Source: Hypericibacter terrae (lineage in GTDB: Bacteria; Pseudomonadota; Alphaproteobacteria; Dongiales; Dongiaceae). From it: a stretch of DNA of 64,000 nucleotides. Both the position numbers and the translations under genes were made by a program. Positions 2-61,979 of this stretch are shown here, piece after piece; position 1 is the stretch's first letter; each line of letters starts with the position of its first letter. The stretch lies in contig NZ_CP042906.1 of the NCBI RefSeq assembly GCF_008728855.1, forward strand, positions 3,408,001 through 3,472,000, in the 5' to 3' direction. Under the pieces are notes generated by a model. That model was not told the DNA's origin and made no database searches. It worked only from the letters and a program-made list of their open reading frames with translations.

Positions 2-1630
2 GCGCTGGGCATCGATGTCCGCCGCGAGAATCGGACCATTCAGGCATTGAACCTCGACGCCGATCGGGCCCAGGCGGCTTTGCTTGCGCTTGTGGATGCC
101 GAAACGGGATTCCGCGGCTTCGCCCTCACCGGAGACGAGGCCTATCTGCAACCCTACTTTCAGGGTCTCGAGCGATTGAGCCTGATCGAGAGCGCGTCGC
201 CGCTCTTGTTCGACTCCAAGCTCAAGGCCACGGGCTCGATCCTGCGACTTGCGGACATGATCCAGCATCGGATCCTCCAATTCAGCTGGGGGATCGAGAA
301 TGTCCGACGCAACGGTCCCCTGATCGGAGACCGCCTCCAGGTCGTGATTCGCGGCGAGGAGCAGATGGACTCGATCCGCGAGCTGATCGGCGAGATTCGC
401 GCCCAGCGCCAGGGCGACGCCAATGAACTGTCCCGCAAGCGAGATCTGCGCAATATCCTTGCCTTCGGACTGGTGACCGCGGCCGGTGTCATGGCGATCT
501 CCCTCAGCATCACGCAGTTCTTCGCCTTCCGGCTGCAAATTCGCCGGCGCGCGGCTTCCGAATCAATGTTGCAATTGCGCGGTCGAGAGACGGAGCTGGC
601 CGCCGACATGGTCAATGCCCTGCAGGCCGCGGCCACCCGCGAAGAAACCCTGACGATCATCGCCGACTATTCGTCGCAAATCATGCCCGGCCCGACGGGC
701 GCACTTTATACTTACGACAATAGCCTCGACCAACTGGTCTTATCGGCGGCGTGGGGTGGTGCAGCGCTTCAATCCGGGCTGATTCCGGCCTTCGCCCCGG
801 ACGAATGCTGGGCACTCCGGCGCGGCGAGGCCTATATGGCGGATTCAGGCCGTGTGAGCCTGAACTGTCACCATGTTCAAGGCTCGCCCCACCAGTATTT
901 GTGCTTGCCCATCACGGCCCAGGGCGTCGTCTATGGCGTTCTGCATTTCGCATCCTCGGCCGCGACGCCCGAGCTCGCCTTCTCGGCGACCCTGGATACG
1001 GCGCGCGGCTTGGCCAATCGCCTGTCGCTGGCATTGGCGAATTTGGATCTGCGCGAGAAGCTGCGGTCCCTCTCGATCCGCGATCCGCTGACCGGACTCT
1101 TCAATCGGCGGGTCCTGGACGAGATTCTGGACCGCGAAGTGGCGCGGGCCGACCGTGTGCGCTCGAAGCTGGGCGTGGCGATGATCGACATCGACCATTT
1201 CAAGACCTTCAACGACCAGTTCGGTCACAAGGCCGGTGACGTCGTTCTCAAGGCCGTCTGCGACCAGATCGTGAAGCTGCTGCGACGCACCGACCTGGCC
1301 TGCCGCTATGGCGGCGAGGAGATCGTCCTGCTGCTGCCGGAGGTCGACCTGGAAAGCGGCATGCAGGTTTGCGAAAAACTGCGAAGCGCCGTTTCTGAAA
1401 TTGCCTTGGGAGATTTAGTGACCGGTGCGGTCAATGTCACCATCTCGGTGGGCTTCAGTCTCTATCCCGATCTCTGCAGCGATAGGAGCGATCTGCTAGC
1501 CAGCGCGGACCGTGCCCTCTATTGGTCGAAGCACAATGGACGCAATCAAGTCACTTGCTGGGCTGCCGCCAGACCCAATCCGAGTCTGCCACCGGCCGCG
1601 CCCGTCCCCCGGATCACGACCGCGGCCTAG
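2..1630 (+). CDS. CHASE3-GAF-GGDEF diguanylate cyclase, 5' end outside the window
   Basis: The reading frame stays open to the left edge, so the true start lies outside the window; a TTG at 47 is only an internal codon. The order seen is an extracytoplasmic CHASE3-like helical segment (GFRGFALTGDE), one transmembrane helix (about residues 140-162 counted from the TTG), a GAF-like domain (about 195-335) and a C-terminal GGDEF domain. The GGDEF core reads RYGGEEIVLLLPE, so the catalytic loop is GGEE, and an RxxD (RRTD) lies five residues before it, which matches the product-inhibition I-site. This predicts an active, feedback-inhibited synthase of cyclic di-GMP. The signal sensed is unknown. 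Its stop overlaps the stop of the convergent mttB-like gene. Confidence 0.9.
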   Translation, partial: ALGIDVRRENRTIQALNLDADRAQAALLALVDAETGFRGFALTGDEAYLQPYFQGLERLSLIESASPLLFDSKLKATGSILRLADMIQHRILQFSWGIENVRRNGPLIGDRLQVVIRGEEQMDSIRELIGEIRAQRQGDANELSRKRDLRNILAFGLVTAAGVMAISLSITQFFAFRLQIRRRAASESMLQLRGRETELAADMVNALQAAATREETLTIIADYSSQIMPGPTGALYTYDNSLDQLVLSAAWGGAALQSGLIPAFAPDECWALRRGEAYMADSGRVSLNCHHVQGSPHQYLCLPITAQGVVYGVLHFASSAATPELAFSATLDTARGLANRLSLALANLDLREKLRSLSIRDPLTGLFNRRVLDEILDREVARADRVRSKLGVAMIDIDHFKTFNDQFGHKAGDVVLKAVCDQIVKLLRRTDLACRYGGEEIVLLLPEVDLESGMQVCEKLRSAVSEIALGDLVTGAVNVTISVGFSLYPDLCSDRSDLLASADRALYWSKHNGRNQVTCWAAARPNPSLPPAAPVPRITTAA

Positions 1631-3153
1631 GTCGGAACGCCACCCTCCTCCTTGCGCTTGGCGACGAAGGCTTCGAGCGCTTCCGTGATCGCCGGGTCGA
1701 GCGGCGGCGGCTGGAATTCCGCCAGCGCCTGCTTCCAGATCGCGTTGGCCCGCTGCTCGGCCGTCTGCGCACCCGCGAGACGCCAGCTCTCGTAGTTGCG
1801 CCAGTCGGAGAGGATCGGCGAATAGAACGCGGTCTCGTAGCGCGCCATCGTATGGGCCGTGCCGAAGAAATGACCGCCCGGGCCGACATCGGTCATGGCC
1901 TCGAGGCCCAGCGTGTCGTCGGTGACCTCGAGCGGCTGCAGGAATTCGCCCATCATCTGCAGCATCTCCACGTCGAGGATGAACTTCTCGAACGAGGCGA
2001 CCAGTCCGCCCTCCATCCATCCGGCGCCATGGAGCATCATATTGACGCCGCCCATCACGGCACCCCAGATCGACATCTCGGACTCGTAGGCGGCTTGCGC
2101 GTCCACGGCATTGGCGGCGCAGGCGTTCGAGGAGCGATAGGGGAATCCGTAGCGGCGCGCGAGCTGGCCGCCGGCCATCGCGGCGCGGGCATATTCCGGC
2201 GTGCCGAAGGCCGGCGCGCCGGACTTCATATCGACGTTCGAGGTGAAGCCGCCATACATGCAAGGCACGCCCGGCGCCACCAGCTGGATCATCGTGATCC
2301 CGGCCAGAGCCTCGGCATTCTGCTGCGCCAAGGCACCGGCGATGGTCACGGGCGCCATGGCGCCCGACAGGGTGAAAGGCGTGAGCACCACCGGCTGGCC
2401 GTGGCGCGCCATCTCCATCAGGCCCTGGAGCATCGGCCCGTCGAGGCGCAGCGGCGAATTCGAGTTCACGATCGAAAACAGGCTGGGCTCGCGCTTGAGT
2501 TGTTCCTTGCCGATGCCGCGCGCGATGCAGATCATCTCGACCGCATCGGAGATGCGATGCTTGCCCAGGGAATAGGGATGCCAGAGCTTGTCGGTGAGCG
2601 TGATCGCCGCCAGATGCGCATCGAGATGGCGGGTCGCCGGCGGACGATCGGCGGGTTCGACCGGATAGCCGCCGGTGAACTGCACGATGTTGTAGGTCTG
2701 CACCAGCTTCAGCAGCTCGCAATAGTCCTGGAAATTCCCGGGCCGGCGGCCGCGATCCATGTCGCTGACATTGGGCGCGCTGGCGACCGAGCCGAAATTC
2801 ACATGGTTGCCGCCGAAGGTCAGGTTGTGCTCCGGATTGCGCGCGTGAAGCATCACCTCGCGCGGCACCTTGGCGATCGATTCCAGCACCAGCCCGCGGT
2901 CGAACCGCACGCGCTGCGAGCCGGATTCGATCTTGGCGCCGGCCGCCTTCAGGATCGAGAGCGCCTCCGCATCGAGGAACTCGATGCCGATCTCCTCGAG
3001 GATCTTGAGCGACGCCTCGTGGATCTTCTCGAGCTGCTCGGGACGCAGGACCTCGATCGGCTTGTAGACATTCCGGTAGTGGCGCCAGGGTAGTTGCTTG
3101 AGGCCGCCCACCACGCGACGTTCGCGGCGGCGTCCTTGCTGGTCACGCGACAT
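1627..3153 (-). CDS. MttB/MtgB-family methyltransferase (non-pyrrolysine), copy 1
   Basis: 508 aa, full length for the trimethylamine methyltransferase MttB superfamily (COG5598). The family signature regions are visible: an N-terminal LRPEQLEKIHEASLKILEEIGIEF stretch, central FTLSGAMAPVTIAGALAQQNAE and a C-terminal DVGPGGHFFGTAHTMARYE. There is no in-frame amber codon, so it is not a pyrrolysine enzyme. Characterised non-pyrrolysine members demethylate quaternary amines such as glycine betaine, passing methyl to a corrinoid protein. No corrinoid protein or corrinoid:THF methyltransferase gene is seen in the window, so the acceptor is unknown. It is divergent from the HAL-family gene at 3334, 180 bp away, suggesting shared control. 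Substrate cannot be read from sequence. Confidence 0.85.
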   Translation of the reverse strand: MSRDQQGRRRERRVVGGLKQLPWRHYRNVYKPIEVLRPEQLEKIHEASLKILEEIGIEFLDAEALSILKAAGAKIESGSQRVRFDRGLVLESIAKVPREVMLHARNPEHNLTFGGNHVNFGSVASAPNVSDMDRGRRPGNFQDYCELLKLVQTYNIVQFTGGYPVEPADRPPATRHLDAHLAAITLTDKLWHPYSLGKHRISDAVEMICIARGIGKEQLKREPSLFSIVNSNSPLRLDGPMLQGLMEMARHGQPVVLTPFTLSGAMAPVTIAGALAQQNAEALAGITMIQLVAPGVPCMYGGFTSNVDMKSGAPAFGTPEYARAAMAGGQLARRYGFPYRSSNACAANAVDAQAAYESEMSIWGAVMGGVNMMLHGAGWMEGGLVASFEKFILDVEMLQMMGEFLQPLEVTDDTLGLEAMTDVGPGGHFFGTAHTMARYETAFYSPILSDWRNYESWRLAGAQTAEQRANAIWKQALAEFQPPPLDPAITEALEAFVAKRKEEGGVPT

Positions 3154-3333
3154 GCTGTCTCCCGATCGAACCGCTCCCGCCGACGGGCGGGAATGCCCCG
3201 GTCATGGCGCGGGTGGGAAGCTAGGGGTCCCGCCCCGACGCCGTCAAGGCCGCCCCGCCCGAGTTTCGCGTGAATTCCCGGGCCGCTGCGACCCCATGGA
3301 CGCAAACACCCGTTTCGCGTTAGGCAGACCGGC

Positions 3334-4872
3334 ATGAAAACCCTGTCCTCCGCATCCAGCCCGCTTCCCATCGGCGACGCGCCCCTCGATATCGCGACGG
3401 TGCGCGAGGTCGCCCTGCATGACGTCCGGGTCGGGCTTGCGCCCGCGGCCGAACGACGAATGGCGATATCCCGGGCCGTGGTCGACCGCCACCTGACCGA
3501 GGGCCGGCCGGTCTATGGCCTGACGCGCGGCCTGGGGCCGCAGGCGACCAAGACGGTACCGGCGGAGGCCCTGGCCGAGTTCTCCCGGCTGACGGTGCTC
3601 GGCCGTGCCCAGTCCGTCGGGCCCCGCTTCTCGCGCGCCGCCACGCGGGCAACGCTGCTGATCCGCGCCACCAGCATGGCCGCCGGCGGTGCCGGCGTCA
3701 GGCCGGACCTGGCGGGGTTCCTGCTCGAGCTCCTCAACCGCAAGGTCCATCCCGTCATTCCCTCGATCGGTTCGATCGGCGCCTCGGATTTGTGCCAGCT
3801 GGCTCATATGGGACTGGTGGTCATCGGCGAGGGCGAGGCCGAATTCGAGGGCAAGGTGATGCCCGGGGCCGAGGCACTCAAGCGTGCCGGGCTGACGCCG
3901 GTGTCATTGGCGCCCAAGGAAGGGCTGGCCCTCTGCAGCGCCAATTCGGCGACGGCCGCGCGCGGTGCCCTGGCTCTCGCCTGGGCCCGCGACCTGGCGC
4001 TGCTCGGCGATCTCGCCGCCGCTTTGACGATGGAGGGCTTCCGCGCCAATCTCTCGCCCCTTGATCCGCGCGTTTCCGCCGCCCGTCCGCAGCCTGGCCA
4101 ACCCGAATCCGCAGCAAGGTTCCTGCGTCTCCTCGCCGGCAGCGCGCTCCTGCAACCCGGGGCCGCGCGCCGGATCCAGGACCCGCTCTCCTTCCGCTGC
4201 GTCAGCCAGGTCCATGGTTCCTTCGCGATCGCATTGGATCATGCCGAACAGGCCCTGCTGCCCGAGCTCAACGGCGCTGGCGACAATCCGCTGGTGCTGC
4301 CCGACAGCGACACGATCCTGTCGAATGGCAATTTCCACACCCCGGCCCTGGCGCTGGCCTTCGATAGCGCCGCGATCGGGCTGGCGCAGACCGCCAATCT
4401 CGCCGTCAACCGCATCGGGCGGATGATGTCGAAGCGCCTGACCGATCTGCCGGACGTCCTGACGCGCGAGCCGCCGCCCTCGGTGGGGCTGGGGCCGCTC
4501 ACCAAGACGACCGAGGCGCTCGCCGCCGAGATCCGCTTCGCCGCCAATCCCGTTGCCGCCGATCAGCGCCAGAGCGCCGAAGGCATCGAGGACGACACCA
4601 CCAACGCGCCGCTGGCCGTGGCGAAGTTCGAGACCGCGCTCGAACGCTATGCGCTCCTCATCGCCTGCGAGCTGATCGTTGGCGCCCAGGCAGTCGATCT
4701 TGCCCAGCCGCCGGCCCTGGGCGCCGGCCCTCGGATCGCATATGAGGCAGTGCGGGCGCTGGTGTCGCCGCTGGCGCAGGACCGCCCCTATGGCGCCGCC
4801 ATCGAGAGCCTGTGCGACCGCCTGCTGCATTCAGAGGAATTCGCCCGGAAAGTCACCGCCAGCATCGGCTGA
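3334..4872 (+). CDS. HAL/PAL-superfamily lyase lacking the MIO triad (ergothionase-like candidate)
   Basis: 512 aa, the usual length for histidine/aromatic amino acid lyases, with family landmarks YGLTRGLG (Tyr61), GSIGASDLCQLAHM (147-159), QDPLSFRC (Arg288), GNFHTPALALAFD and a C-terminal helical bundle. The canonical Ala-Ser-Gly that cyclises to the MIO cofactor reads Ala150-Ser151-Asp152, the glycine being absent. The position of the HAL selectivity histidine (SHA) reads GRA (Arg91), and the NGTQ region reads SANS. It is thus unlikely to be a normal HutH. Ergothionase is a known MIO-independent member that releases trimethylamine from ergothioneine; hut genes and MttB genes nearby suit a betaine lyase. 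Alternatives are an aromatic betaine lyase or a non-catalytic homolog. The ATG follows a weak AGGCA ribosome site. Confidence 0.72.
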   Translation: MKTLSSASSPLPIGDAPLDIATVREVALHDVRVGLAPAAERRMAISRAVVDRHLTEGRPVYGLTRGLGPQATKTVPAEALAEFSRLTVLGRAQSVGPRFSRAATRATLLIRATSMAAGGAGVRPDLAGFLLELLNRKVHPVIPSIGSIGASDLCQLAHMGLVVIGEGEAEFEGKVMPGAEALKRAGLTPVSLAPKEGLALCSANSATAARGALALAWARDLALLGDLAAALTMEGFRANLSPLDPRVSAARPQPGQPESAARFLRLLAGSALLQPGAARRIQDPLSFRCVSQVHGSFAIALDHAEQALLPELNGAGDNPLVLPDSDTILSNGNFHTPALALAFDSAAIGLAQTANLAVNRIGRMMSKRLTDLPDVLTREPPPSVGLGPLTKTTEALAAEIRFAANPVAADQRQSAEGIEDDTTNAPLAVAKFETALERYALLIACELIVGAQAVDLAQPPALGAGPRIAYEAVRALVSPLAQDRPYGAAIESLCDRLLHSEEFARKVTASIG

Positions 4873-4896: not shown

Positions 4897-5853
4897 TCAG
4901 GCCGGCGACTTCCCGGCGCGACGGGCGCCATCGGTTTTCTTCATCTGCGCCGCCTCGGCCAGGATCCAGTCGCGGAACGCCGTCACCAGGGGCGGCTCCG
5001 CCGCGCTGTCGGGACGGATCAGGAAATAGGCGAATTGCGCCGGCCCCTTGAGGGACAGATCGAAGGGCCGCACCAGCCGCCCGCTCGCCAGATCGTCCGC
5101 GGCCAGCGTCGAATCGCCGAGGACGACGCCCTGCCCGTCGATCGCGGCCTGCAGCGCCAGATCGGTCTGCGTGAAATGGATCCCGCGCGCGGCGCCCGCC
5201 TCCTTCGCCACGCCGGCCGCCAGCAGCCACATGTTCCAGTTCGGCCAGGTATCGTCCTGCGCGTTCCAGTCGACATGAATGAGCGTGTGGTGGCGCAGGT
5301 CCTTCGGCTGGCGAAGCGGATGGGCGCCCTTGAGGAGCTTCGGGCTGCAGACGGGGAAGATCACGTCGTCGAACAACCGGTCCGCCAGCAGGTCCGGATA
5401 GTCGCCTCTGCCGAACCGGATGCCGATATCGACATCCTCGCGCGCGAAATCGATCAGACGTTGCGAGACCTCGATCCGAACATCGGCCTCCGGATATTGC
5501 AGCAGAAAACGGTCGAGCCGCGGCACCAGCCATTTGGCCGCGAAGGAAGGCGAACTCGTGACCATCAATCTCGGCCGGCCGGCCGCCTCGCGCAGCCGCG
5601 CCACCGCCCGCCCCACCCGGTCGATCGCCTCCGCCGCGGCGTGACGCAGGATCTCCCCGGCGGGTGTCAGCCGGACCACGCGGCTGGTCCGCGCGAAAAG
5701 TTTCACGCCCAGCTGATCCTCGAGCTCGCGCACGAGATGGCTCACTGCGGCCGGCGTCACGCCGAGTTCGGCCGCAGCCTTGGTGAAGCTCGAATGGCGC
5801 GCCGCCGCCTCGAAACCGCGCAACCCGCCCAGTCCGGGAATGAAGGCCACCAT
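4897..5853 (-). CDS. LysR-family transcriptional regulator, GcvA-like
   Basis: 318 aa, typical LysR length. A winged helix-turn-helix occupies residues 8-66 (FEAAARHSSFTKAAAELGVT, then PAAVSHLVRELEDQLG), followed by an effector-binding domain (about 92-300). The GLRGFEAAARHSSFTKAAAEL start and FARTSRVVRLTPAG resemble GcvA and similar regulators. It is convergent with the HAL-family gene (24 bp apart) and divergent from the DUF1127 gene. The intergenic region upstream carries TTATC/GATAA-type repeats that could be its operator. The inducer is unknown; a role in amino acid or amine use is plausible by position only. Confidence 0.9.
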   Translation of the reverse strand: MVAFIPGLGGLRGFEAAARHSSFTKAAAELGVTPAAVSHLVRELEDQLGVKLFARTSRVVRLTPAGEILRHAAAEAIDRVGRAVARLREAAGRPRLMVTSSPSFAAKWLVPRLDRFLLQYPEADVRIEVSQRLIDFAREDVDIGIRFGRGDYPDLLADRLFDDVIFPVCSPKLLKGAHPLRQPKDLRHHTLIHVDWNAQDDTWPNWNMWLLAAGVAKEAGAARGIHFTQTDLALQAAIDGQGVVLGDSTLAADDLASGRLVRPFDLSLKGPAQFAYFLIRPDSAAEPPLVTAFRDWILAEAAQMKKTDGARRAGKSPA

Positions 5854-7325: not shown

Positions 7326-8729
7326 TCACGCCGCCAGGGTCGCGACCGCGCCGCGGAATCGCGCGGCAACCGCCTCTTCGGCGAAATGTCGGCCCGCTTC
7401 CACCACCCAGCGCCCGCCGATCATGACGTCGCGGACGGGGTTGGCATTGCCGGCGAAGACCAGCGCATCGATCAGCGTGTCGTCCTGGCGGCCATAGAGC
7501 AGCGGATGCTCGGCATCGAGCACGAGAAAATCGGCGCGATGGCCGGGCGCCAGCTTGCCGATCGGCCGCGCCAGCGCACGCGCGCCGCCTTCGAGGGCCG
7601 CGCGATAGAGATCGGCGCCGACCGAGCCGGTGCGCCCGGTCATACGATTGCGCCGACGCTCGAGGAGACGCTGGCCATATTCGAGCCAGCGCAGCTCCTC
7701 GACGGGGCTGACCGAGATATGGCTGTCGGAACCGACGCCGAAGGCGCCGCCCAGGCGCTGATAGGCGATCGCCGGAAAGAAGCCGTCGCCGAGATTGGCC
7801 TCGGTGGTCGGACAGAGCCCGGCGACCGCGCCGGAAATCGCGAGCGCCCGCGTCTCCGCTTCCGTCATGTGGGTCGCATGCACCAGACACCAGCGCGGGC
7901 CCACCGGCAGATGGCCCATCAGCCAGTCGACCGGCCGGCGCCCGGACCAAGCGATGCAGTCATCGACCTCGAGCGTCTGCTCGGCGATATGGATATGGAT
8001 CGGCGCCTCGGCGTCGAGCGCATCCAGGCCGGCGACGGCACCGGTCAGCATCTCGGGCGTCACGGCGCGCAGGCTGTGCGGCGCGATCCCGATGCGGACC
8101 TGCGGGTTGCCGCGATGGCGGCGCATCAATTCCTGGATCAGGGCCAGATAGGCGTCGAGCGAATGGAGGAAGCGGCGCTGCCCGGGCTTGGCCGGCTGGC
8201 CGCCGAAACCGCCCTGGGCATAGAGCACGGGCAGATGGGTGATGCCGATGCCGACATGGGCCGCGGCCGCCAGCACCCGCTCCGACATCTCGGCGGGATC
8301 GGCATAGGGCCGCCCCTCCGGGTCGTGATGCAGGTAATGGAACTCGCCGACGGTGGTGTAGCCCGCCTTGATCATCTCGACATAGAGCTGACCGGCGATG
8401 GCCTCGACCTGGCCGGGCGACAGCTTCTCCACGAAGCCATACATCACGCTGCGCCAGGTCCAGAAGCTGTCCTCGCCGGCAGCGCCGCCCTGGCCCGCGC
8501 GTTCGGTCAGCCCCGCCATGGCGCGCTGGAAGGCGTGCGAATGGAGATTGGGCATGCCCGGCAGGACCGGACCCGCCGCGCGCACGGCGTGACGGGCAGC
8601 GGGCTGAGCCCCTGCATCGGGCGTCACCGCCGCGAGGCTGCCATCGACCGCGATCTCGAACAGGACGTCCTTCGCCCAGCCGTCCGGCAGGAGCGCTCTT
8701 TCGGCGAGGAGGCGATGGACGATGCTCAT
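7326..8729 (-). CDS. hutF: formimidoylglutamate deiminase HutF
   Basis: 467 aa from the ATG at 8729 (MSIVHRLLAERALLPDGW), close to the usual 450-460 aa. It is an amidohydrolase-superfamily protein with the metal-binding GMPNLHSHAFQRAMAGL motif, a central HIHIAEQ, and C-terminal GVGSDSHISVSPVEELRWLE. HutF converts N-formimino-L-glutamate to N-formyl-L-glutamate plus ammonia in the cytosol. Together with HutG (17111-17920), HutI (14962-16230) and HutU (19102-20778) it completes the route from urocanate to glutamate and formate. The hut genes here are scattered rather than in one operon. Confidence 0.93.
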   Translation of the reverse strand: MSIVHRLLAERALLPDGWAKDVLFEIAVDGSLAAVTPDAGAQPAARHAVRAAGPVLPGMPNLHSHAFQRAMAGLTERAGQGGAAGEDSFWTWRSVMYGFVEKLSPGQVEAIAGQLYVEMIKAGYTTVGEFHYLHHDPEGRPYADPAEMSERVLAAAAHVGIGITHLPVLYAQGGFGGQPAKPGQRRFLHSLDAYLALIQELMRRHRGNPQVRIGIAPHSLRAVTPEMLTGAVAGLDALDAEAPIHIHIAEQTLEVDDCIAWSGRRPVDWLMGHLPVGPRWCLVHATHMTEAETRALAISGAVAGLCPTTEANLGDGFFPAIAYQRLGGAFGVGSDSHISVSPVEELRWLEYGQRLLERRRNRMTGRTGSVGADLYRAALEGGARALARPIGKLAPGHRADFLVLDAEHPLLYGRQDDTLIDALVFAGNANPVRDVMIGGRWVVEAGRHFAEEAVAARFRGAVATLAA

Positions 8730-9050
8730 GAAGGGGACAGGATATGCAATGTTGCGCGACCGAGCGTCCTGCCGGGCCAACCTGGCACCGGGGGCGCGGG
8801 AGCGCGGATCCCCATCTTATAGCAAAATTCCGGGAGGGCAGTCACCCGCACCGCCATTCTGGAATCCGGCGGGCTGGGAAAAAGAGCCTGGAGGCCGAAA
8901 AGCGATCTCCAAGGGTCGCATCCCCTGCCGCAGCTCGGTCGCCGGCGACGGGACCTCGGTCCTTTCGAGGCAATGCCCCAGAAGGACCGAGGTCGGCGTC
9001 ATCTCATCAAGGAATGCCGAGCGATCGGAGCTGCAGCAGCGAGAATGCGA
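8730..9050. other. gene-free stretch between HU gene and hutF, with a 12-bp inverted repeat
   Basis: No convincing gene in these 321 bases. GACCTCGGTCCT at 8952-8963 is repeated in perfect inverted form (AGGACCGAGGTC) at 8983-8994, with a 19-base loop. It lies just downstream of the HU gene on the minus strand and could form a terminator-like hairpin, but no T-run follows. Open frames across this region have no coding character. Confidence 0.6.
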
Positions 9051-9708: not shown

Positions 9709-9749
9709 AATTGGACTGTTCCGAGCTTGAAACGTCCGGGAGATGTCGC

Positions 9750-10910: not shown

Positions 10911-10923
10911 GGCGCCCGCGGTC

Positions 10924-11940: not shown

Positions 11941-12027
11941 AGCGGGCTTCGCCCCTACACGCTGGGCTTCCATCCTGGTAGGGTCTCTGCGCCGGCGCCA
12001 GGGACCTCCGCCGGCGGGAACGACTTC

Positions 12028-13389: not shown

Positions 13390-13428
13390 CGTCGTGGATA
13401 GAGACACTCCCTCCCGCCAGGAACGGTC

Positions 13429-14961: not shown

Positions 14962-16230
14962 ATGTGGGACTCCCTGTGGATCAATGGGCGTCTGGCGACG
15001 ATGCGCGAGGGCGCGGTGCCCTACGGCACGATCGAGCCCGGCGCCATCGCGGTCGAAGGCAGCCGGATCGCCTGGGTCGGGCCCGTGGGCGAATTGCCCC
15101 GCCGGACCGCGCGCAATATTCACGATCTCGACGGGCGCTGGGTCACGCCGGGCCTGGTCGATTGCCACACCCATCTGGTCTATGGCGGCGACCGGGCGCA
15201 GGAGTTCGAGCGGCGCCTCAACGGCGCCACCTATGAGGAGATCGCCAAGGCCGGCGGCGGCATCCGCTCGACCGTGACCGCGACCCGCGCGGCGACCGAA
15301 GCCTCCCTCCTCGCCAGCGCCACCGAGCGGCTGAAGCCGCTGCTGGCCGAGGGCCTGACCACGATCGAGATCAAGTCGGGTTACGGGCTCGAGCGCGACG
15401 CCGAGATCAAGCAGCTCAAGGTCGCGCGCGCGCTGGGCGAACGTCATCCGGTCACGGTGCGCACCACCTTCCTCGCGGCTCATGCCCTGCCGCCCGAATA
15501 TGAGGGCCGCCCCGACGAATATATCGACGCGGTCGCGAGCAAGATGCTCCCGGCGGCCCATGCGGCCGGGCTGGTCGATGCGGTCGATGCCTTCTGCGAG
15601 CGCATCGGCTTCACCGCGGCCCAGACCGAGAAGCTGTTCCGGGCCGCCACCTCCTTCGGGCTGCCGGTCAAGATCCATGCCGAGCAGCTCTCCGACCAGA
15701 AGGGCGCCGTCCTCGGCACCCGCTATGGGGCGCTTTCGGCCGATCATCTCGAATATCTGGGCGAGGACGGCGTGCAGGCGATGGCCAATACCGGCACGGT
15801 CGCGGTGCTGCTGCCGGGCGCCTTCTATTTCCTGCGCGAGACCAAGCTGCCGCCGATCGAAGCCCTGCGCAAAGCCGGCGTGCCGATCGCGCTCGCGACC
15901 GACAGCAATCCCGGCAGCTCGCCGGTCACCTCGCTGCTGCTGATGCTGAACATGGGCGCCACCCTGTTCCGCCTGACGCCGGAAGAGACGCTCGCCGGCA
16001 TCACGCGCAATGCCGCCAAGGCGCTGGGGCTGGGCGGCAGCATCGGCACGCTCCAGGCCGGCAAGCGCGCCGATTTCGCGGTCTGGAACATCGACCGCCC
16101 CGCCGAGCTCACCTACCGTATCGGCTTCAATCCGCTCTACCAGCGCGTCTGGCAGGGCAAGCCGGATGCCAAGGTTGCGGGCGAGCCGCGGCTCCAGCCG
16201 GAGCCGGTCGCGGCGGCCAACGCCGGCTAG
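14962..16230 (+). CDS. hutI: imidazolonepropionase HutI
   Basis: 422 aa, the expected size. Metal-binding [20 protein letters not shown], then [26 protein letters not shown] and [11 protein letters not shown] are diagnostic for HutI in the amidohydrolase superfamily. It hydrolyses 4-imidazolone-5-propanoate to N-formimino-L-glutamate, the step between HutU and HutF. The ATG is preceded by a strong purine-rich GAGGAGAGGAG region. It ends one base before the convergent thioredoxin-like gene ends. Confidence 0.95.
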
Positions 16231-17110: not shown

Positions 17111-17920
17111 CTACCACTTCAACCCCTTCGCCTCGCGGCCCCAGTCGAGCATGGTCTCGAGGATGCGGCGCAGATGGGGGCGGATGCCCTTGGCGCGGTC
17201 CTCGCGGAAGCCGAAGGGCGGGTCTTCGTCCATATAGGTGATCTGCGACAGCTCGAGCTGCACCGCGGCGACGCCCTCGGCGGGCTTGCCGTAGTGGCGC
17301 GTGATATAGCCGCCCTTGAAGCGGCCATTGAGGACGCTGCTATAGCCGTCGGCCTCGCCGGCCGCTTCGATGAGGCGGGCGGCCAGCTCGGAAGGGGCGC
17401 TCTTGCCGTCCGCCGTGCCGAGATTGATGTCCGGCAGCCTTCCGGCGAAGAAGCGCGAGACCTCGGAGCGGATCGAATGGGCGTCGAACAGAAGCGCCGT
17501 GCCGAACCGCGACCTGATTTCGGCCAGCATCTGCGCCAATCGCGCGTGATAGGGCCGCCAATAGGTCTCGACCCGCTGCTTCGCCTCATCAGCACCGGGC
17601 GCCTCGCCCGGCCGCCACAGCGGCTCGTCGTCGAAGCTCGTGGTCGGGCAGAGTTCGGTGTTGCTGGCGCCCGGATAGAGCACCGTGCCGTCGGGCGGGC
17701 GGTTGAGGTCGATCACATAGCGCGAATGGGTCGCCATCAGGAGATTGGCGCCGAGCGAGGCCGCGAAGTCATAGAGCCGGTCCACATGCCAGTCCGTGTC
17801 GGGAACGGACCGCGCCGCATCGGTCATGCGCCGGGCCAGCGCATCGGGCAGATGGGTCCCGACATGGGGCATGCTGATCAGGAGCGGCGCCGGCCCGGGC
17901 TGGAATCGGAAAGGCTCCAT
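17111..17920 (-). CDS. hutG: N-formylglutamate amidohydrolase HutG
   Basis: 269 aa from the ATG at 17920 (MEPFRFQPGPAPLLISMPHVGTH), the usual HutG size; the frame is open for about 190 codons further upstream but that part has no family similarity. Conserved features are SMPHVGTHLP, the DLNRPPDG loop, LLFDAHSIRSEVSRFFAGRLPDINLG and VQLELSQITYMDE. HutG hydrolyses N-formyl-L-glutamate to L-glutamate and formate and is the last step after HutF. It is divergent from the gene at 18099. Confidence 0.93.
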   Translation of the reverse strand: MEPFRFQPGPAPLLISMPHVGTHLPDALARRMTDAARSVPDTDWHVDRLYDFAASLGANLLMATHSRYVIDLNRPPDGTVLYPGASNTELCPTTSFDDEPLWRPGEAPGADEAKQRVETYWRPYHARLAQMLAEIRSRFGTALLFDAHSIRSEVSRFFAGRLPDINLGTADGKSAPSELAARLIEAAGEADGYSSVLNGRFKGGYITRHYGKPAEGVAAVQLELSQITYMDEDPPFGFREDRAKGIRPHLRRILETMLDWGREAKGLKW

Positions 17921-18098
17921 GGCAATCTGAATTCCCTGAAAGGTTCGGTGGGTCGCGCGAAGGACCGACTCTGCCCGTCGCCGCCGCTCTTGTGAAGTGC
18001 CGTGGGCGCGGTTCATTAACCTTACGATCCCGCTGCCCCCTGCCCGATTGGCAGTCCGCATGGCATCTGCGATCATGAGCCAGCAAGAGGCCCCTGAC

Positions 18099-19013
18099 AT
18101 GGCAGACGAAAGCAACCCCCAGCGGCCTCCCGGCGCGCCAGCGGGCAAATCCGGCGGCGGTATCGGCCGCGAGCTCACCGAGGAAGAGAAAGCCTGGGTG
18201 CGCAGCCTGTCGCCCGAACAGAAGGCGCGCATCCGCGCCATGAGCGGGGCCGAGAAGAAGAAGCTTTTGGCGGCGGCGATGATCGCCCGGCAGAAGGCCG
18301 CCGGCCAGGCGCCGGCGCCCAGCGGTCCGCCGGGTCTGGTTCCGACGACCCCTCCCGGTGCGCGGCCCCGACCGCAGGGGCCGAACCCCGGCGGTGGTGG
18401 CGGAGGCCAGGGACAGGGCAAAGGCCGGCCCGACCCGAACCGACCGCGGCAGCAGGCGCTTCCCAGCGGTTTCCAGGATCCGTTCGCGCCGATCACGCGC
18501 ATGCCGAAATTCGGCCAACTCGCGCGCCATCAGAAGGTCATCATCGCCGTCTGCGTCACCGCCGTGATCGCCATCGCCGGCATTCTCTTCGGCACCAACT
18601 GGGTCCATATCCCGGGGCGCGATCTGGGCGCGATGATCCGCCACAACACGGATTTCCTGGGGGAGAACATCAGCCTCCCCGCCAAGCCGATCGCCACCAC
18701 CTGGCAGATGCTGCCGCATGACGAGGCGGGCGCCACCGTCAGGGACGCCACGCAATGGCGCATCACCGCCGTCATGGAATTTTCCTACGAGGACATGGCG
18801 AAGCTGGTGGCTGCCGCCAAAGACAAGGCGCCCAGTCCCGCTGACGAGATCGAGGCCGAGCATTGGTTCCCGCCCGATGTGAAGGCGGCCATGAAGGCCC
18901 GTGCGCCCCGCTATATCGATCCCTCGCCCTTCTTCGGCGAGCGCTACAAACAAGGCTCGGCCCTCATCGTCACCGGCACTAATACGATCGTGATCCGCCT
19001 GACCAGCGATTGA
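18099..19013 (+). CDS. membrane-anchored protein with Pro/Gly-rich cytoplasmic region, unknown function
   Basis: 304 aa from the ATG at 18099, chosen because AAGAGG lies eight bases before it; ATGs at 18060 and 18075 lack a ribosome site. A hydrophilic N-terminal part (LTEEEKAWVRSLSPEQKARI) is followed by a long Pro/Gly/Gln-rich linker including a run of glycines, a single transmembrane helix (VIIAVCVTAVIAIAGILFG) and about 140 extracytoplasmic residues. No family is recognised. It sits between hutG and hutU, but nothing links it to histidine use. Confidence 0.7.
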   Translation: MADESNPQRPPGAPAGKSGGGIGRELTEEEKAWVRSLSPEQKARIRAMSGAEKKKLLAAAMIARQKAAGQAPAPSGPPGLVPTTPPGARPRPQGPNPGGGGGGQGQGKGRPDPNRPRQQALPSGFQDPFAPITRMPKFGQLARHQKVIIAVCVTAVIAIAGILFGTNWVHIPGRDLGAMIRHNTDFLGENISLPAKPIATTWQMLPHDEAGATVRDATQWRITAVMEFSYEDMAKLVAAAKDKAPSPADEIEAEHWFPPDVKAAMKARAPRYIDPSPFFGERYKQGSALIVTGTNTIVIRLTSD

Positions 19014-19101: not shown

Positions 19102-20778
19102 ATGCCCGCATCCTCCCGCCTCGACAATGAACGCCAGATCAAGAGCCCGCACGGCACCACGCTCAGCGCCAAGAGCTGGCTGACCGAGGCGCCCTTACGC
19201 ATGCTGATGAACAATCTCGACGCCGCGGTCGCCGAGAAGCCGCAGGAACTGGTGGTCTATGGCGGCATCGGCCGCGCCGCACGCGATTGGGAATGCTACG
19301 ACCGGATCGTGGCCAGCCTGCGCAGCCTCGAGGCGGACGAGACCCTGCTGGTCCAGTCGGGCAAGCCGGTCGGTATCTTCCGCACCCATGCCGACGCGCC
19401 CCGCGTCCTCATTGCCAACTCCAATATCGTGCCGCATTGGGCGACCTGGGAGAAATTCCACGAGCTCGATCGCAAGGGCCTGATGATGTACGGCCAGATG
19501 ACGGCCGGGTCCTGGATCTATATCGGCAGCCAGGGCATCGTGCAGGGCACCTACGAGACCTTCGTCGAGGTCGGACGCCGGCATTTCGGCGGCCATCTCA
19601 AGGGCAAATGGATCCTGACCGGCGGGCTCGGCGGCATGGGCGGCGCGCAGCCGCTGGCTGCCACCATGGCGGGCGCCTCGATGCTGGCGGTCGAATGCCA
19701 ACCCAGCCGCATCGAGCGCCGTCTCGAAACGCGCTATCTCGACCGGCGTGCCGACAATCTCGACCAGGCGCTGGGCATGATCAAGGAGGCGACAGTGCAG
19801 GGCCAGGCGGTTTCGATCGGTCTCCTCGGCAATGCCGCCGAGATCTTCCCCGAACTGGTGCGCCGCGGCATCCGTCCCGACATCGTCACGGACCAGACCT
19901 CGGCGCATGATCCTCTCAACGGCTATCTGCCGGCCGGCTGGTCGCTCGACAAGGCCGAGCGGCTGCGCGAGAGCGATCCGGACGCCGTGGTCCAGGCCGC
20001 CAAGCAATCGATGGCGGTGCAGGTCAAGGCCATGCTCGATTTCCATCGCATGGGCATTCCCACGCTCGACTACGGCAATAACATCCGGCAGATGGCGCTC
20101 GAGATGGGCGTGGCCGACGCGTTCGATTTCCCGGGCTTCGTGCCGGCCTATATCCGTCCCCTCTTCTGCCGCGGCATCGGCCCGTTCCGCTGGGCCGCCC
20201 TCTCCGGCGATCCGGAGGACATCTACAAGACCGATGCGCGGGTGAAGCAGCTCATTCCCGACAATCCGCATCTCCATAACTGGCTCGACATGGCCAAGGA
20301 ACGCATCCAGTTCCAGGGCCTGCCCGCGCGCATCTGCTGGGTGGGGCTGGGCGAGCGCGCCAGGCTCGGCCTCGCCTTCAACGAGATGGTGGCGAAAGGC
20401 GAGCTCAAGGCGCCGGTCGTGATCGGCCGCGACCATCTGGACTCCGGCTCGGTCGCGAGCCCTAACCGCGAGACCGAGGCGATGCAGGACGGCTCGGACG
20501 CCATCAGCGACTGGCCGCTCCTCAACGCGCTGCTCAACACCGCGTCCGGCGCCACCTGGGTCTCGCTCCATCATGGCGGCGGTGTGGGCATCGGCTATTC
20601 GCAGCATGCCGGCATGGTGATCGTCGCCGACGGCACCAAGGACGCCGCGCGCCGGCTCGAGCGGGTCCTGACCAACGACCCCGCGACCGGCGTCATGCGC
20701 CATGCCGATGCCGGCTACCAGATCGCGATCGATTGCGCCAAGGAGAAGGGCCTGAAGCTGCCGATGCTCGGCAAATAG
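19102..20778 (+). CDS. hutU: urocanate hydratase HutU
   Basis: 558 aa, exactly the family size. NAD-binding [20 protein letters not shown], the [15 protein letters not shown] segment containing the catalytic-region cysteine, [20 protein letters not shown] and [17 protein letters not shown] are all intact. It hydrates urocanate to imidazolone propionate. Start is supported by AGGAAG nine bases before the ATG. Downstream genes follow at 32, 44 and -4 bases on the same strand, so hutU probably leads an operon with the EthD and dimethylformamidase-like genes. Confidence 0.96.
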
Positions 20779-36180: not shown

Positions 36181-36331
36181 CGAAGCTCCTGCTCGTCAAA
36201 TTCATTGCGCGGGGGAATTTAGCGGGCGGGGGCGCCCGATCTCAAGCGCCCTGGCGCCATCTCACCGTCATCCGAACGAGACGCGGCGAAAGGGCCGCAG
36301 CGTCAGCGCCTTCAGACTGGTCTGGAATCGG

Positions 36332-37357: not shown

Positions 37358-37568
37358 GGAACGTCCAGAATGGGGGTCGGGCCAGGAAACGGGGCGCACT
37401 CTACGCTATGTCGCGAAATGAATAAATGGTGGCGTAGGGTCGCAAGACCGGAATCGGCGCCGGACCGCCATTTTCGCGGCCCGGGATGCGGCCCCGGGGC
37501 GCTTGCAACCCCTTCCCACCACTGCCATTTTGTCCGCCGCCCAGCCCCTCCCGAGGAGGCCCACGCCC
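37358..37568. promoter_or_regulatory. gbdR-like / soxB divergent control region
   Basis: 211 bases between the divergent regulator and sox operon. It must hold both promoters and probably the operator. An AT-richer patch, TGTCGCGAAATGAATAAATG (37409-37428), is the most promoter-like part. No palindrome strong enough to call an operator was seen. Confidence 0.4.
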
Positions 37569-38828: not shown

Positions 38829-38841
38829 AGGACCAGGCCCG

Positions 38842-57673: not shown

Positions 57674-58387
57674 CTAAGCGAGCAACGCGTCCAATTCCGC
57701 AATGGAATCCAGCACGCGGTCGGCGTGATCCGCCAGAACCTCGCGCGGACTGACGCCGGTGAGAACGCCGATCGCCAGACCGGCACCGGCCGCGCGTGCC
57801 ATATGCATGTCATGTGGCGTGTCGCCGACGACCGCGATGTCCCCTGCCGGAATCTCGATCGCCCGGCAAAACGCGTGGACCATGCCGGGGCCGGGCTTGT
57901 GGCCGTGGCCCGAATCGTAACCGCAGGAAAAATCGACGAGCCCCACCAGCTCGAACGTCTCGATCGCGGCGCGCGCCGCGGCGTGGCTGTCCATGGTGGC
58001 GACGCCGATCTTGAGGCCCTTGGCCTTCAGCCGGCCGAACAGCGCCGCCAGATCGGTAACCGGCGTCGGCCGCATCTCCATGCTCTTGGCGAAGTTCGCA
58101 TCGAAGCGGCGGGTGAGCCGCGCCACGGTCCAGTCGCCGCCGGCGACCCGCGCCCAGATCTCGGCGATCTCGGCGTTGGTGCCCGCGGCCAGGGACGAGT
58201 GGGGGTCGAGCCTTTTCGTGGCGGCGTCATAGCCGCTCTCGACCAGGAGCTTCAGCGCCAGCGCCTTGTCGCCACCCGCGACCTCGTTCGCGGTGTCGAG
58301 ATAGAGCGGCATCCAGGTGGCGTTGAAGTCGAACAGCGTGCCGTCCTTGTCGAACAGCACCGCGCGCACCGGCGGGAGAAGGGTCAC
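57674..58387 (-). CDS. HAD-superfamily hydrolase coupled to choV
   Basis: 237 aa from GTG at 58387, which overlaps the choV stop (GTGA). Motif I is VLFDKDGTLFDF, motif II is in GVATMDSHAAA, and motif III/IV is VVGDTPHDMHMARAAG, so it is an active phosphatase-type HAD of the phosphoglycolate-phosphatase class. No signal peptide. Coupling to choXWV makes a phosphorylated choline or related compound a possible substrate, but this is inference from position. Confidence 0.87.
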   Translation of the reverse strand: MTLLPPVRAVLFDKDGTLFDFNATWMPLYLDTANEVAGGDKALALKLLVESGYDAATKRLDPHSSLAAGTNAEIAEIWARVAGGDWTVARLTRRFDANFAKSMEMRPTPVTDLAALFGRLKAKGLKIGVATMDSHAAARAAIETFELVGLVDFSCGYDSGHGHKPGPGMVHAFCRAIEIPAGDIAVVGDTPHDMHMARAAGAGLAIGVLTGVSPREVLADHADRVLDSIAELDALLA

Positions 58388-59643
58388 GTCACTCCCACCA
58401 TGGCGACCGGATCGGAACGGCCGAGATCGGTTTGCTTCAGCATCCCGCGATAGAGCTCCTGCTCGCCCACGACGCCGACCAGCTCGCCCTCGGGGCCCAA
58501 CAACACCAGCGGCCGCAAGGTCACCTGACGCACCATCACGGCGGCGCGCATGGGCGTCCGGGCGTTGCCCGTCACCATCACATCGCCGGCCATCCGGGCC
58601 AAGTCGAGGTCGGTACTGTAGGGCACGAATCTTCCGGGAGCGCCCGCCACCTTGAGCTCGGCCGGACGGCCCGCGACATCGAGTCGGACGACGCAGCGTC
58701 CGGCCCGATCGAGCTGGACGATAGAAGGATCAGACGGGTCGCGCTTGAGCTCGCTCAGCGGCCGCATAAGGGTCCCCCCCTTCAGGACCGTCAGCGGATT
58801 CATCGAAGCCACGAACTGGCGCACATAGTCGTTGACCGGATTGAGGATGATGTCCTCCGGCACGCCGAACTGTACTACCTTTCCGGCCTCCATGATGGCG
58901 ATGCGGCTGCCGATCTTGAGCGCTTCGTCCAGATCGTGGCTCACGAACACGATGGTCTTGCGCAAGCTCCGCTGCAGCTCGATGAGTTCGTCCTGGAGAT
59001 GCTCGCGGATCAGCGGATCGAGAGCAGAGAACGGCTCGTCCATCAGAAGGACGTCGGCCTCGGTCGCGAAGGCACGCGCCAGGCCGACGCGTTGCTGCAT
59101 GCCGCCCGAAAGCTCGTGCGGAAACTTGTCGGCGAACTTGTCGAGCCGAACCAGCTTGATCTTCTCGTCCACGATCCGGTCGCGCTCGGCCTTCTCGAGC
59201 CCCCGAATGTCGAGGCCGAACCCGACATTGTCGCGCACTGTGAGCCAGGGCATCAGCGCAAACTGCTGGAACACCATAGAGATGCGGTTGCGGCGCATCT
59301 GGCGCAGCTTGTTCTCGTCGCAGCTCGTAACGTCGATCTCGCCTTGTCCGTCATGCACCCAGATGTGCCCCCGCGAGACACGGTTGAGACCATTGATGCA
59401 ACGCAGGAGCGACGATTTCCCAGAGCCCGAGAGCCCCATCAGCACCAGAATCTCGCCCTCGTTCACGAAGACAGAGGCGTCGTGCACGGCGACCAGGCTG
59501 CCGGTCCGGTCGAGGATGGCGTCGCGCCCCTCGCCCTGATCCAGCATCGTCAGGGCATCAGGAGCGCGCTCGCCGAAGATCACGTCGACATGCTCGAAGC
59601 GGACGGCGCTGGCGCCGGAGAGAGTCGAATTTTTCTCAGTCAT
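58384..59643 (-). CDS. choV: choline/glycine betaine ABC transporter ATP-binding protein ChoV/ProV
   Basis: 419 aa. Walker A GLSGSGKSSLLRCING, signature LSGGMQQRVGLARAFA, Walker B DVLLMDEPFSALDP and the switch His in VFVSHDLDEALKIG. A C-terminal region (about 285-419) with ARTPMRAAVMVRQVTLRPLVL and GELVGVVGEQELYRGML is CBS-like, as in ProV and ChoV. It energises uptake of choline or betaine. It lies four bases after choW. Confidence 0.92.
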   Translation of the reverse strand: MTEKNSTLSGASAVRFEHVDVIFGERAPDALTMLDQGEGRDAILDRTGSLVAVHDASVFVNEGEILVLMGLSGSGKSSLLRCINGLNRVSRGHIWVHDGQGEIDVTSCDENKLRQMRRNRISMVFQQFALMPWLTVRDNVGFGLDIRGLEKAERDRIVDEKIKLVRLDKFADKFPHELSGGMQQRVGLARAFATEADVLLMDEPFSALDPLIREHLQDELIELQRSLRKTIVFVSHDLDEALKIGSRIAIMEAGKVVQFGVPEDIILNPVNDYVRQFVASMNPLTVLKGGTLMRPLSELKRDPSDPSIVQLDRAGRCVVRLDVAGRPAELKVAGAPGRFVPYSTDLDLARMAGDVMVTGNARTPMRAAVMVRQVTLRPLVLLGPEGELVGVVGEQELYRGMLKQTDLGRSDPVAMVGVT

Positions 59644-59647
59644 GGAT

Positions 59648-60541
59648 TCAGGCCTTCGGAAGTTTGAGCGAACCGCGACGCTGTGGACGCTTCAAGATGC
59701 GGTCGAGCGCGATCGCCAGCACAACGATGCAAAGTCCTGCGACTACACCCCGTGCCACGTCTGCCTGGGCGAGCGCCCGAATCACCGGAACACCGAGCCC
59801 GTCGGCGCCGACGAGGGCGGCGATCACTACCATCGACAGCGACAGCATGATCGTCTGAGTGACGCCAGCCATGATTGTGGGCAGCGCCGCCGGCAGCTTC
59901 ACGCGCGTCAGCAACTGCCAGCGGGTGCAACCGAAACTCTCACCCGCCTCGATCAGCGGTTTCTGCACTTGGCTGATGCCGAGATAGGTCATGCGGATCG
60001 GCGCCGGGGCCACGAAGATCACCGTAGCGATCATCCCCGGCACCATGCCCAACCCGAAGAAGACCAGCGTCGGCACCAGATAAACGAAGGTTGGAATTGT
60101 CTGCATCATGTCGAGAATCGGCGACAAGAACTGGTAGAAGAGCGGCCGGCGCGCGCAGAAAATTCCCATCGGCACGCCGATGGCGAGTGATACGAAGCTC
60201 GAATAGATCACCAGAACCAGGGTCTCGACCGTGTCCGGCCAAAGCTGCTGGTTGAGGATGAAAAGGAGGCCCACCACGACAAAGGCGGTGATCGCCCAGC
60301 TTCGTTGCAGCCAGTGCGCGATCCCCGCGATGATGGCGATCAGGACGACCGCCGGAACCTGCTGCAGCAACTCGGCCGTGCCCTCGATCGGATATTTGAG
60401 GCCGTTGGTGATGCCATCGAAGAGCCACTCGAAATTGCCGGTGAGCCAGTCCACTGCTGCCTTGGCCCAAAGGCCGATAGGGACCGGTGCACTGCCGATC
60501 CACTCGTCGATGCCGGCGATCCATTGCCAGAACTGATCCAT
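59648..60541 (-). CDS. choW: choline/glycine betaine ABC transporter permease ChoW/ProW
   Basis: 297 aa from the ATG at 60541 (MDQFWQWIAGIDEW), with GGGAGACGG upstream; an upstream start at 60616 would overlap the terminator region. Typical ProW-like layout with an N-terminal amphipathic start, six to eight transmembrane helices and the inner-membrane EAGESFGCTRWQLLTRVKLP coupling loop. It partners ChoV and ChoX. Separated from choX by a strong hairpin at 60661-60704. Confidence 0.93.
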   Translation of the reverse strand: MDQFWQWIAGIDEWIGSAPVPIGLWAKAAVDWLTGNFEWLFDGITNGLKYPIEGTAELLQQVPAVVLIAIIAGIAHWLQRSWAITAFVVVGLLFILNQQLWPDTVETLVLVIYSSFVSLAIGVPMGIFCARRPLFYQFLSPILDMMQTIPTFVYLVPTLVFFGLGMVPGMIATVIFVAPAPIRMTYLGISQVQKPLIEAGESFGCTRWQLLTRVKLPAALPTIMAGVTQTIMLSLSMVVIAALVGADGLGVPVIRALAQADVARGVVAGLCIVVLAIALDRILKRPQRRGSLKLPKA

Positions 60542-60660
60542 GAGCCCGTCTCCCAGAGAACACCCGGCCTTTTTCTCGTCCACGGCGGATCGGCCGCAGC
60601 GGCCGGGGTTGGCCATTTGTCGATTTATATCATCTTCGCAAGGCTTGGCGCCTCGTCATG

Positions 60661-60704
60661 AAAAAAGCGGCGGCGTCCGGCCTGTGAAGGCCGAAAGCCG
60701 CCGC
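60661..60704 (-). terminator. intrinsic terminator or attenuator between choX and choW
   Basis: On the minus strand, GCGGCGGC and the matching GCCGCCGC (60704-60697 and 60674-60667) enclose an inner GGCC, TTCACA, GGCC hairpin and are followed by six T residues. It lies 22 bases after the choX stop and before choW, so it would raise choX expression over choWV by partial termination. Confidence 0.85.
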
Positions 60705-60726
60705 TGCCTTTTGCAGGGTGGGAGAC

Positions 60727-61665
60727 TTAGAGCCCCAGGCTCTTCTTCACCGCCGCCAAGCCGTCCTTGCCATCGGCCGTCGTCACGCCGGCGAGCCACT
60801 TGTCGAGCGTACCCGGGTTGGCCTTGAGCCAAGCCGCCGCCGCCGTCTCGCCATCCTTGCCCTTGCCGATCTCATCCATGATCGAGGATTCCATCGGCAG
60901 GTCGAACTCGAGATTGGCGAGCAGCTTACCGACATTCGGACAGTCGGCGCTGTAGCCGGCGCGCGTCAGGGTCTGCACCTGGGCGTCGCCAAAGCCGTCG
61001 GCCTCGAAGCCGCTCAGATATTTGAGTGGCATCTTGCCCATGATCGGATGGGGCGCCCAGCCCAGGAACACGATCCAATCCTTGTTCTTCATGGCCTTCT
61101 CGGCCTGGACCAGCATGCCCTGCTCGGAGGACTCGACCAGCTTCCAGCCCTTCAGGTTGTTCTCCGGCTTGTCGATCTCGGTCTGCACGATCTTGTTGCC
61201 GTCGTTGCCGGGCTCGATCCCGTAGAACTTGTGATCGAACTTGTCGGCATGCGTGCTCAGATCCTTGATGTCCTTGACGCCGGCGTCATAGACATAGTCC
61301 GGCACCACCGGCCCATAACCTGCGCCCGGCAGATTGGTGCGGATCATTTCGATGGTCTTGGCATCGATATAGGGTTTCACGTTCGGCGCGTTCGACGGCA
61401 TCCAATTGTCGAGAAAGATATCGAGATCCTTGTTCTTCAGGCTCTCGAGAATGACCGGCAGCGCCAGGCCTTCCTTGTCGTCATATTTGTAGCCGAGTCC
61501 CTTGAGCACGGTCCGGAACAGCCCGTTCTGGGCGAAATTGTCGGTCCAGCCGACATTGGCCAGACGCACCGTCTTGCAAGCGGCAGGCTCGGCCGCCTGG
61601 GCCTGCCCGGCCAGTGTCAACCCGAGCGCAACCGCGCCCAGCAGCAGAAATTTACGCATCGCCAT
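60727..61665 (-). CDS. choX: choline/glycine betaine substrate-binding protein ChoX
   Basis: 312 aa from the ATG at 61665, nine bases after a perfect AGGAGG. Signal peptide MAMRKFLLLGAVALGLTLAG, then AQAAEP. Aromatic-box segments that hold quaternary ammonium groups are visible in NVGWTDNFAQNG, FLDNWMPSNAP, and FLGWAPHPIMGKM, as in ChoX and ProX. Periplasmic receptor for choline or betaine. First gene of choX, choW, choV and the HAD gene. Confidence 0.92.
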   Translation of the reverse strand: MAMRKFLLLGAVALGLTLAGQAQAAEPAACKTVRLANVGWTDNFAQNGLFRTVLKGLGYKYDDKEGLALPVILESLKNKDLDIFLDNWMPSNAPNVKPYIDAKTIEMIRTNLPGAGYGPVVPDYVYDAGVKDIKDLSTHADKFDHKFYGIEPGNDGNKIVQTEIDKPENNLKGWKLVESSEQGMLVQAEKAMKNKDWIVFLGWAPHPIMGKMPLKYLSGFEADGFGDAQVQTLTRAGYSADCPNVGKLLANLEFDLPMESSIMDEIGKGKDGETAAAAWLKANPGTLDKWLAGVTTADGKDGLAAVKKSLGL

Positions 61666-61979
61666 GGAAGTCCGCCTCCTGTTGCCTGAGATCGCCGATG
61701 CTGTTGGATCGCCATCGGACGGCCCAGTGCTGTTGCCCTCGGAGCCCCTGTCGGAGTCCCCGGGGGGTGGATGAACCCGATCGATCATAACCCTGCAGCC
61801 TGGGCCTTTGGGTTGACCGAACGGTCCATTCCAGGAAGCTAGCAAGCCTCCCGGCCAGCGAAATCCCCTATCCGCGTCATGGATTTGCGTCGGAGCGGCA
61901 GGTTTCGATCAAGCTTGCAGGAGTGTCCCAGCACAATCGCAAGCGAGAGGGTTGGCGGCAACGGGCCGGCGGCCGGCGC
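61666..61979. promoter_or_regulatory. 314-base leader upstream of choX
   Basis: Non-coding between the double permease stop (61980) and the choX start. It must contain the choX promoter. GATCGATCAT at 61780-61789 is a small palindrome near the middle. No consensus promoter or BetI-like operator could be read with confidence. Confidence 0.4.

Follow-up and report, generated by a model that had tools for sequence, protein, structure and literature searches.

An MIO-less lyase near histidine-degradation genes of Hypericibacter terrae: a candidate trimethylamine lyase for an amino-acid betaine

What does a protein of the histidine ammonia-lyase (HAL) family do when it lacks the triad that forms the MIO cofactor and lies close to histidine-degradation genes? 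The question is raised by a gene at 3334..4872 (+) of the window, by which we mean the whole 64,000-nucleotide stretch of H. terrae DNA analysed here. The open reading frame is intact, its frame and coordinates were confirmed, and PF00221 spans nearly all of its 512 residues in a profile search (446 bits), in agreement with the first-pass annotation of an intact, full-length HAL-family protein. Its score against the hutH model TIGR01225 (379 bits) falls under the cut-off of 539. Comparison with the closest orthologue gave a dN/dS of 0.21, indicating purifying selection and therefore constraint on the protein. The gene converges with that of a GcvA-like LysR-type regulator (4897..5853, -; profile match) and diverges from an MttB-family gene across an intergenic region of 180 bp (3154..3333 on the open-reading-frame map), in which no match to a sigma-70-type promoter was found upstream of the lyase. 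From the open reading frame together with profile, structure, tree and residue comparisons, we read the product as an MIO-less PF00221 lyase and a candidate amino-acid-betaine (hercynine) trimethylamine lyase.

We compared active-site residues across 153 aligned proteins, including 35 rows from the clade that contains the window protein, 6 ergothionase-group rows and 102 MIO enzymes. The lyase reads Ala150-Ser151-Asp152 in a contracted MIO loop (3781..3789, +) without the glycine; this loop, GSIGA-SDLCQLAHM, is one residue shorter than GSVGASGDLAPLAHM of Pseudomonas putida HAL. The missing residue means that the glycine was deleted and that D152 corresponds to the conserved Asp in GASGD, so the first-pass annotation was right that the triad is absent and mistaken in reading Asp152 as a substitution. 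All 35 clade rows and all six ergothionases show the same one-residue contraction, which none of the 102 MIO enzymes has. At the position of the HAL-selectivity residue His83, the alignment confirmed Arg91 (3604..3606, +); 32 of the 35 clade members have Arg there and the other three (L129, L198 and L200) have His, whereas His is universal among the 108 MIO enzymes and ergothionases in the comparison and is also found in the GSVGY proteins described below. The region equivalent to Asn-Gly-Thr-Gln of HAL reads Ser202-Ala203-Asn204-Ser205 (3937..3948, +), also as first reported, and Ser-Cys-Asn-Ala in ergothionase. Leu285 marks the loss of the HAL catalytic Tyr280, a loss seen in ergothionase too, and is followed by Arg288, the retained equivalent of HAL Arg283 (4186..4197, +); the Tyr280 position holds Leu, Ile or Phe in every clade and ergothionase row and Tyr in 102/102 MIO enzymes. 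Lys391 (4504..4506, +) is found in 32/35 clade members, all six ergothionases and none of the 102 MIO enzymes. Tyr61 (3514..3516, +), which corresponds to Tyr53 in both HAL and ergothionase, occurs in every row with letters at that position (one clade row has none) and Glu419 (4588..4590, +; HAL Glu414) is invariant; together with Arg288, they are kept throughout the alignment. The comparison with ergothionase and HutH that had been proposed at first pass thus places in the lyase the Lys/Glu/Tyr set that separates ergothionase from HAL (Tyr61, Lys391 and Glu419, with Leu285), residues with roles in ergothionase itself.

Structural comparison led to the same enzyme. The top PDB match by sequence was Treponema denticola ergothionase (6s7j/6s7q, E 3.9e-73), which outranked all HAL entries. 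An AlphaFold model (mean pLDDT about 93.1), made with the window protein and 25 relatives as input, also had ergothionase 6s7j as its top fold match (TM 0.92/0.94) and matched HAL nearly as well; because all these enzymes have one common fold, such a ranking is weak evidence by itself and the residues are more telling. Two maximum-likelihood trees, both unrooted, gave three groups: the MIO enzymes with a GSVGY side group, the ergothionases (support 99/95, with a sister relation to the lyase clade possible on these unrooted trees) and the clade of the window protein (35 sampled rows, 96/93). A 100/100 branch has the MIO and GSVGY enzymes on one side and the ergothionases and the lyase clade on the other, so a closer relation to MIO enzymes, which the first-pass annotation had named as evidence against its own reading, was sought in the trees and not found. 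Identity as HutH was ruled out by the absent Ala-Ser-Gly triad, the hutH score below cut-off and this branch.

The lyase resembles P. putida HutH (TIGR01225; 1gkm/1b8f) in its fold, in the equivalents of Tyr53, Arg283 and Glu414 and in about 32% identity, but it lacks the triad, has Arg for His83, Ser for Asn195 and Leu for Tyr280, and carries the additional Lys391. With ergothionase (6s7j/6s7q) it shares the PF00221 fold, the one-residue loop contraction, Lys391, Leu in place of HAL Tyr280, Glu419 and SxN and YGLxRG motifs, although identity is only about 31%, the two form separate clades, and the lyase has Arg where ergothionase has His at the HAL83 position and GNFH where ergothionase has ANFE. 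GSVGY-type HutH-like proteins (L064, L195 and L021) likewise combine PF00221 and an absent triad with a place in hut clusters, but they branch with the MIO enzymes, have lost more of the loop and lack Lys391; their loss appears to be independent. This GSVGY-loop group (L064:8001-9521, L195:13481-15112, L021, L024, L025, L027, L029 and L103), whose members have no MIO triad, branch with HutH and lie in or near hut clusters, looks like a separate loss of the triad; the L064 copy adjoins a canonical HutH. A further divergent PF00221 group (L031:1501-2847 and L032:1501-2874) has a GNSGAGE or GQGGAGE loop and QAPVS[FY]R, and lacks the Glu419 motif.

How might such a protein work? Ammonia is a poor leaving group, and free amino acids therefore need MIO. 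A trimethylammonium group departs readily by itself, so MIO would be dispensable in the lyase fold for a substrate that carries one. By analogy with HAL and ergothionase, Lys391, Glu419 and Tyr61 may serve in proton transfer and in ring or carboxylate binding, with Arg288 as a candidate for the carboxylate. The enzyme would act on an amino-acid betaine, eliminating trimethylamine at the alpha carbon and leaving an alpha,beta-unsaturated acid. Ergothionase, which is reported to lack MIO (PMC13405746), provides a precedent. The first-pass idea of MIO-free, ergothionase-like chemistry gains support from the closest solved structure and from the distinguishing Lys common to both, and we consider it likely that the protein is an MIO-independent betaine lyase of the ergothionase-like reaction class. 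Loss of the triad and of other HAL catalytic residues could instead point to a catalytically dead HutH paralogue with a structural or regulatory role. The clade conserves Tyr61, Arg288, Lys391 and Glu419, however, gene neighbourhoods are kept as well, and the gene is under purifying selection, making a dead paralogue extremely improbable. That selection, together with the recurrence of the same changes in dozens of relatives, also speaks against chance or decay as the origin of the altered residues.

The histidine-degradation genes offer a possible destination for the product. HutU, HutI, HutF and HutG, all reported at first pass, exceed their model cut-offs in the window: HutF (formimidoylglutamate deiminase; 7326..8780, -), HutI (imidazolonepropionase; 14962..16230, +; 473 bits, cut-off 298), HutG (N-formylglutamate deformylase; 348 bits, cut-off 279) and HutU (urocanate hydratase; 19102..20778, +; 987 bits against 375). 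The HutG match covers residues 199-456 of the frame at 17111..18502 (-), and the true start of the gene is near 17915, inside that frame. The interval between HutF and HutI (9711-14790, +) holds HmgA-like and FAH-family genes and a tandem pair of PaaK/F390-synthetase-like genes; all these HmgA-, FAH- and PaaK-like genes score far under the cut-offs of the named families.

The first-pass statement that no canonical HutH is present holds for the window and fails for the genome, which encodes one at G000:C1:5283541-5284977(-) (691 bits, cut-off 539). HutH also exceeded the cut-off in 10 of the 13 clade genomes searched. Because this genome and most of those searched keep HutH, the lyase would be an additional entry into the pathway and not a HutH substitute, contrary to the earlier suggestion that it stands in for a missing enzyme. 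The same findings bear on the possibility of an MIO-free ammonia lyase that replaces HutH, with histidine or another amino acid in free form as its substrate. The PF00221 fold and the nearby hut genes would suit such an enzyme, but with HutH retained, the cofactor-forming triad absent, HAL Tyr280 lost and betaine transporters present in lyase contexts, we regard it as very improbable. The canonical HutH gene of this genome adjoins a corrinoid protein gene; in the genus, canonical HutH is flanked by an agmatinase-like gene and an MtgC/MtbC-type corrinoid protein (L039:4860-12043 and L041:2577-11057), at loci that also encode a conserved protein of 1153-1232 residues.

Since the closest solved structure is an ergothionase, with the loop contraction, Lys, Leu285 and Glu in common, the protein might itself convert ergothioneine to thiourocanate and trimethylamine. 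That reading is improbable on three counts, namely descent, active site and pathway context. The ergothionases group apart, and Arg stands in the lyase where both ergothionase groups have His. The genome has no thiourocanate hydratase: its one HutU-family gene, that of the window, scores 726 bits against the thiourocanate hydratase model NF058530, under the cut-off of 930, which identifies it as a true urocanate hydratase. Moreover, where thiourocanate hydratase does exceed its cut-off, in rhizobial-type clusters, the accompanying MIO-less lyase (L169-L172) is a different protein. It shares the contracted loop, Lys, Glu and Leu for Tyr280, but is only 28-31% identical to the window lyase, retains His at position 91 (HAL83), reads GGSLP in place of GNFH and belongs to another operon, whereas relatives of the window lyase occur in hut and betaine-transport contexts. 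Ergothioneine, one of the substrates first proposed, was set aside on the missing thiourocanate hydratase, Arg91 and the separate clade.

Which betaine, then, might be the substrate? We compared neighbourhoods of 24 lineage representatives with 40 other 20-kb stretches from genomes carrying the clade, a control added because the first control, HutH loci, was trivially rich in hut genes; lineages were hand-picked from the tree, control stretches were placed by hand and some loci were short, so the p-values are indicative. The commonest partner was an ornithine-cyclodeaminase-family (OCD) gene (13/24 lineages versus 0/40 stretches, p=1.9e-7). OsmF/OpuAC-type glycine-betaine SBP genes and permease genes each occurred in 6/24 versus 0/40 (p=0.0018 for both), and linkage to quaternary-amine uptake genes was thus found in 6 of the 24 clade lineages, the window itself having only a distant ChoXWV set. 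Genes of the hut F/I/G/U set lay near the lyase in 4/24 lineages versus 0/40 (p=0.017), or in 6/24 when HutC-type regulators were included (p=0.0018). These hut-linked lineages come from two phyla; most sampled lineages have no hut gene nearby. In the lineage of the window, HutF lies near the lyase in three genomes (within a few genes in the window, G014 and G001), and HutI, HutG and HutU follow within 16 kb in the window.

Several relatives show tighter arrangements. In L043, from an Actinomycetes MAG, HutU, HutI, HutF and the lyase are contiguous, each Hut gene exceeding at least one curated cut-off; the relation of the window protein to L043 is moderately supported in the tree (87/82). L195, from a genome of the same phylum as the window that is not listed under its class, has on one strand HutU (1013 bits), a betaine-uptake-type BCCT transporter, a HutH-like gene of the GSVGY type, HutI (476 bits), HutG, the lyase, an OsmF-like binding protein, OCD, permeases and an ATPase; HutF and a HutC-like regulator lie on the far side of HutU. 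A HutU gene end lies at the contig edge in L159, beside transporter, lyase and OCD genes. On Rhizobium plasmids the lyase stands immediately between a preceding HutC-model regulator (280 bits, cut-off 220) and a following glycine-betaine SBP, in operons (L174:5045-15729 and L177:5048-15728) that comprise CoA-transferase, SDR, MaoC, HutC-type regulator, lyase, glycine-betaine SBP, OCD, permease and ATPase genes. The clade lyases of L198, L200 and L201 have His (PLSHSMG) at position 91 and different neighbours.

The betaine transporters and hut genes of the relatives support the first-pass proposal of an amino-acid betaine substrate linked to histidine catabolism. Because HutU acts on urocanate, a betaine lyase in hut clusters would most simply make urocanate, which points to hercynine (histidine betaine): hercynine would yield urocanate and trimethylamine, urocanate would pass through HutU, HutI, HutF and HutG, and the released trimethylamine could be used or exported. 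Hercynine is the precursor of ergothioneine, made by fungi and actinomycetes. EgtD was not found in the H. terrae genome, which makes hercynine synthesis by that route unlikely in this cell; the ChoXWV-type choline/betaine ABC transporter of the window (58384..63959, -; profile match) is a possible uptake route.

We put hercynine as the substrate at about even chances, for several reasons. Arg91 replaces a His kept by HutH and ergothionases, which is odd for an imidazole substrate; the absence of nearby hut genes in most sampled lineages weakens the reading, and the hut cluster by itself may account for the adjacency of HutF. The CoA-transferase, SDR and MaoC genes of the Rhizobium operons fit poorly with urocanate and suit a non-urocanate enoic acid. 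The role of OCD, the alternation of Arg and His at position 91 and possible differences in betaine between subclades temper the reading further. A lyase of the same chemistry could act on phenylalanine, tyrosine or tryptophan betaine, a methylated hercynine or a non-aromatic betaine. Such a substrate would accord with Arg91, with the Rhizobium operons and with the HmgA-like and FAH-like genes 5-7 kb downstream in the window, but in lineages of two phyla the lyase is repeatedly accompanied by hut genes or by a HutC-type regulator, and the HmgA/FAH-like neighbours, shared with a same-genus relative, were absent from the examined stretches of other genera. We set those neighbours aside as evidence for an aromatic betaine and judge another betaine somewhat unlikely as the substrate.

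The lyase clade is apparently a widespread, ergothionase-related group without earlier description. Our literature search, which left most subscription journals outside its reach so that an earlier description is possible, found neither a hercynine-breakdown enzyme nor this clade described. We tentatively propose, at slightly less than even confidence, a widespread family of hercynine trimethylamine lyases that take in fungal and actinomycete histidine betaine by osmoprotectant-type import and feed it as urocanate into the hut pathway. Clade members carry a HutH annotation in rhizobial plasmid records. If our reading is true, genes that carry the histidine ammonia-lyase label in Rhizobium, along with homologues in Streptomyces, Bosea, Azospirillum and other bacteria, encode trimethylamine-releasing enzymes; their annotation should be corrected, trimethylamine would have a newly recognized microbial source, and the shortened loop, Lys391 and Arg91 would together form a signature separating such enzymes from true HutH. 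The clade also offers a case for studying elimination by the MIO fold without MIO.

The gene facing the lyase encodes an MttB-family cobalamin methyltransferase (1627..3153, -; 508 residues; profile match), divergent and 180 bp away as first described. It has no in-frame stop and is therefore of the non-pyrrolysine type, making a quaternary amine a likelier substrate for it than trimethylamine. A closely related MttB gene lies beside the lyase in four close relatives (G014, G001, G016 and G086; lyases 53-82% identical), with one oxidoreductase gene between the two in G016. The adjacency is conserved only in these four genomes and that of the window, which hold the closest orthologues; across the clade MttB was not enriched (3/24 lineages versus 2/40 other stretches, p=0.35), and the H. 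terrae genome has nine MttB genes. We therefore no longer treat MttB as general support, the weight it had been given at first pass. The protein may instead serve general glycine-betaine and choline genes, in which the window is rich: dimethylglycine/sarcosine-oxidase-like genes, a GbdR-like regulator and the ChoXWV transporter (33760-42152 and 58384-63959) mark a general choline/glycine-betaine region. A second MttB-family gene lies at 46901-48466 (-) in the window, and three related tandem GGDEF-type proteins are encoded upstream of MttB in L040 (L040:5946-11630).
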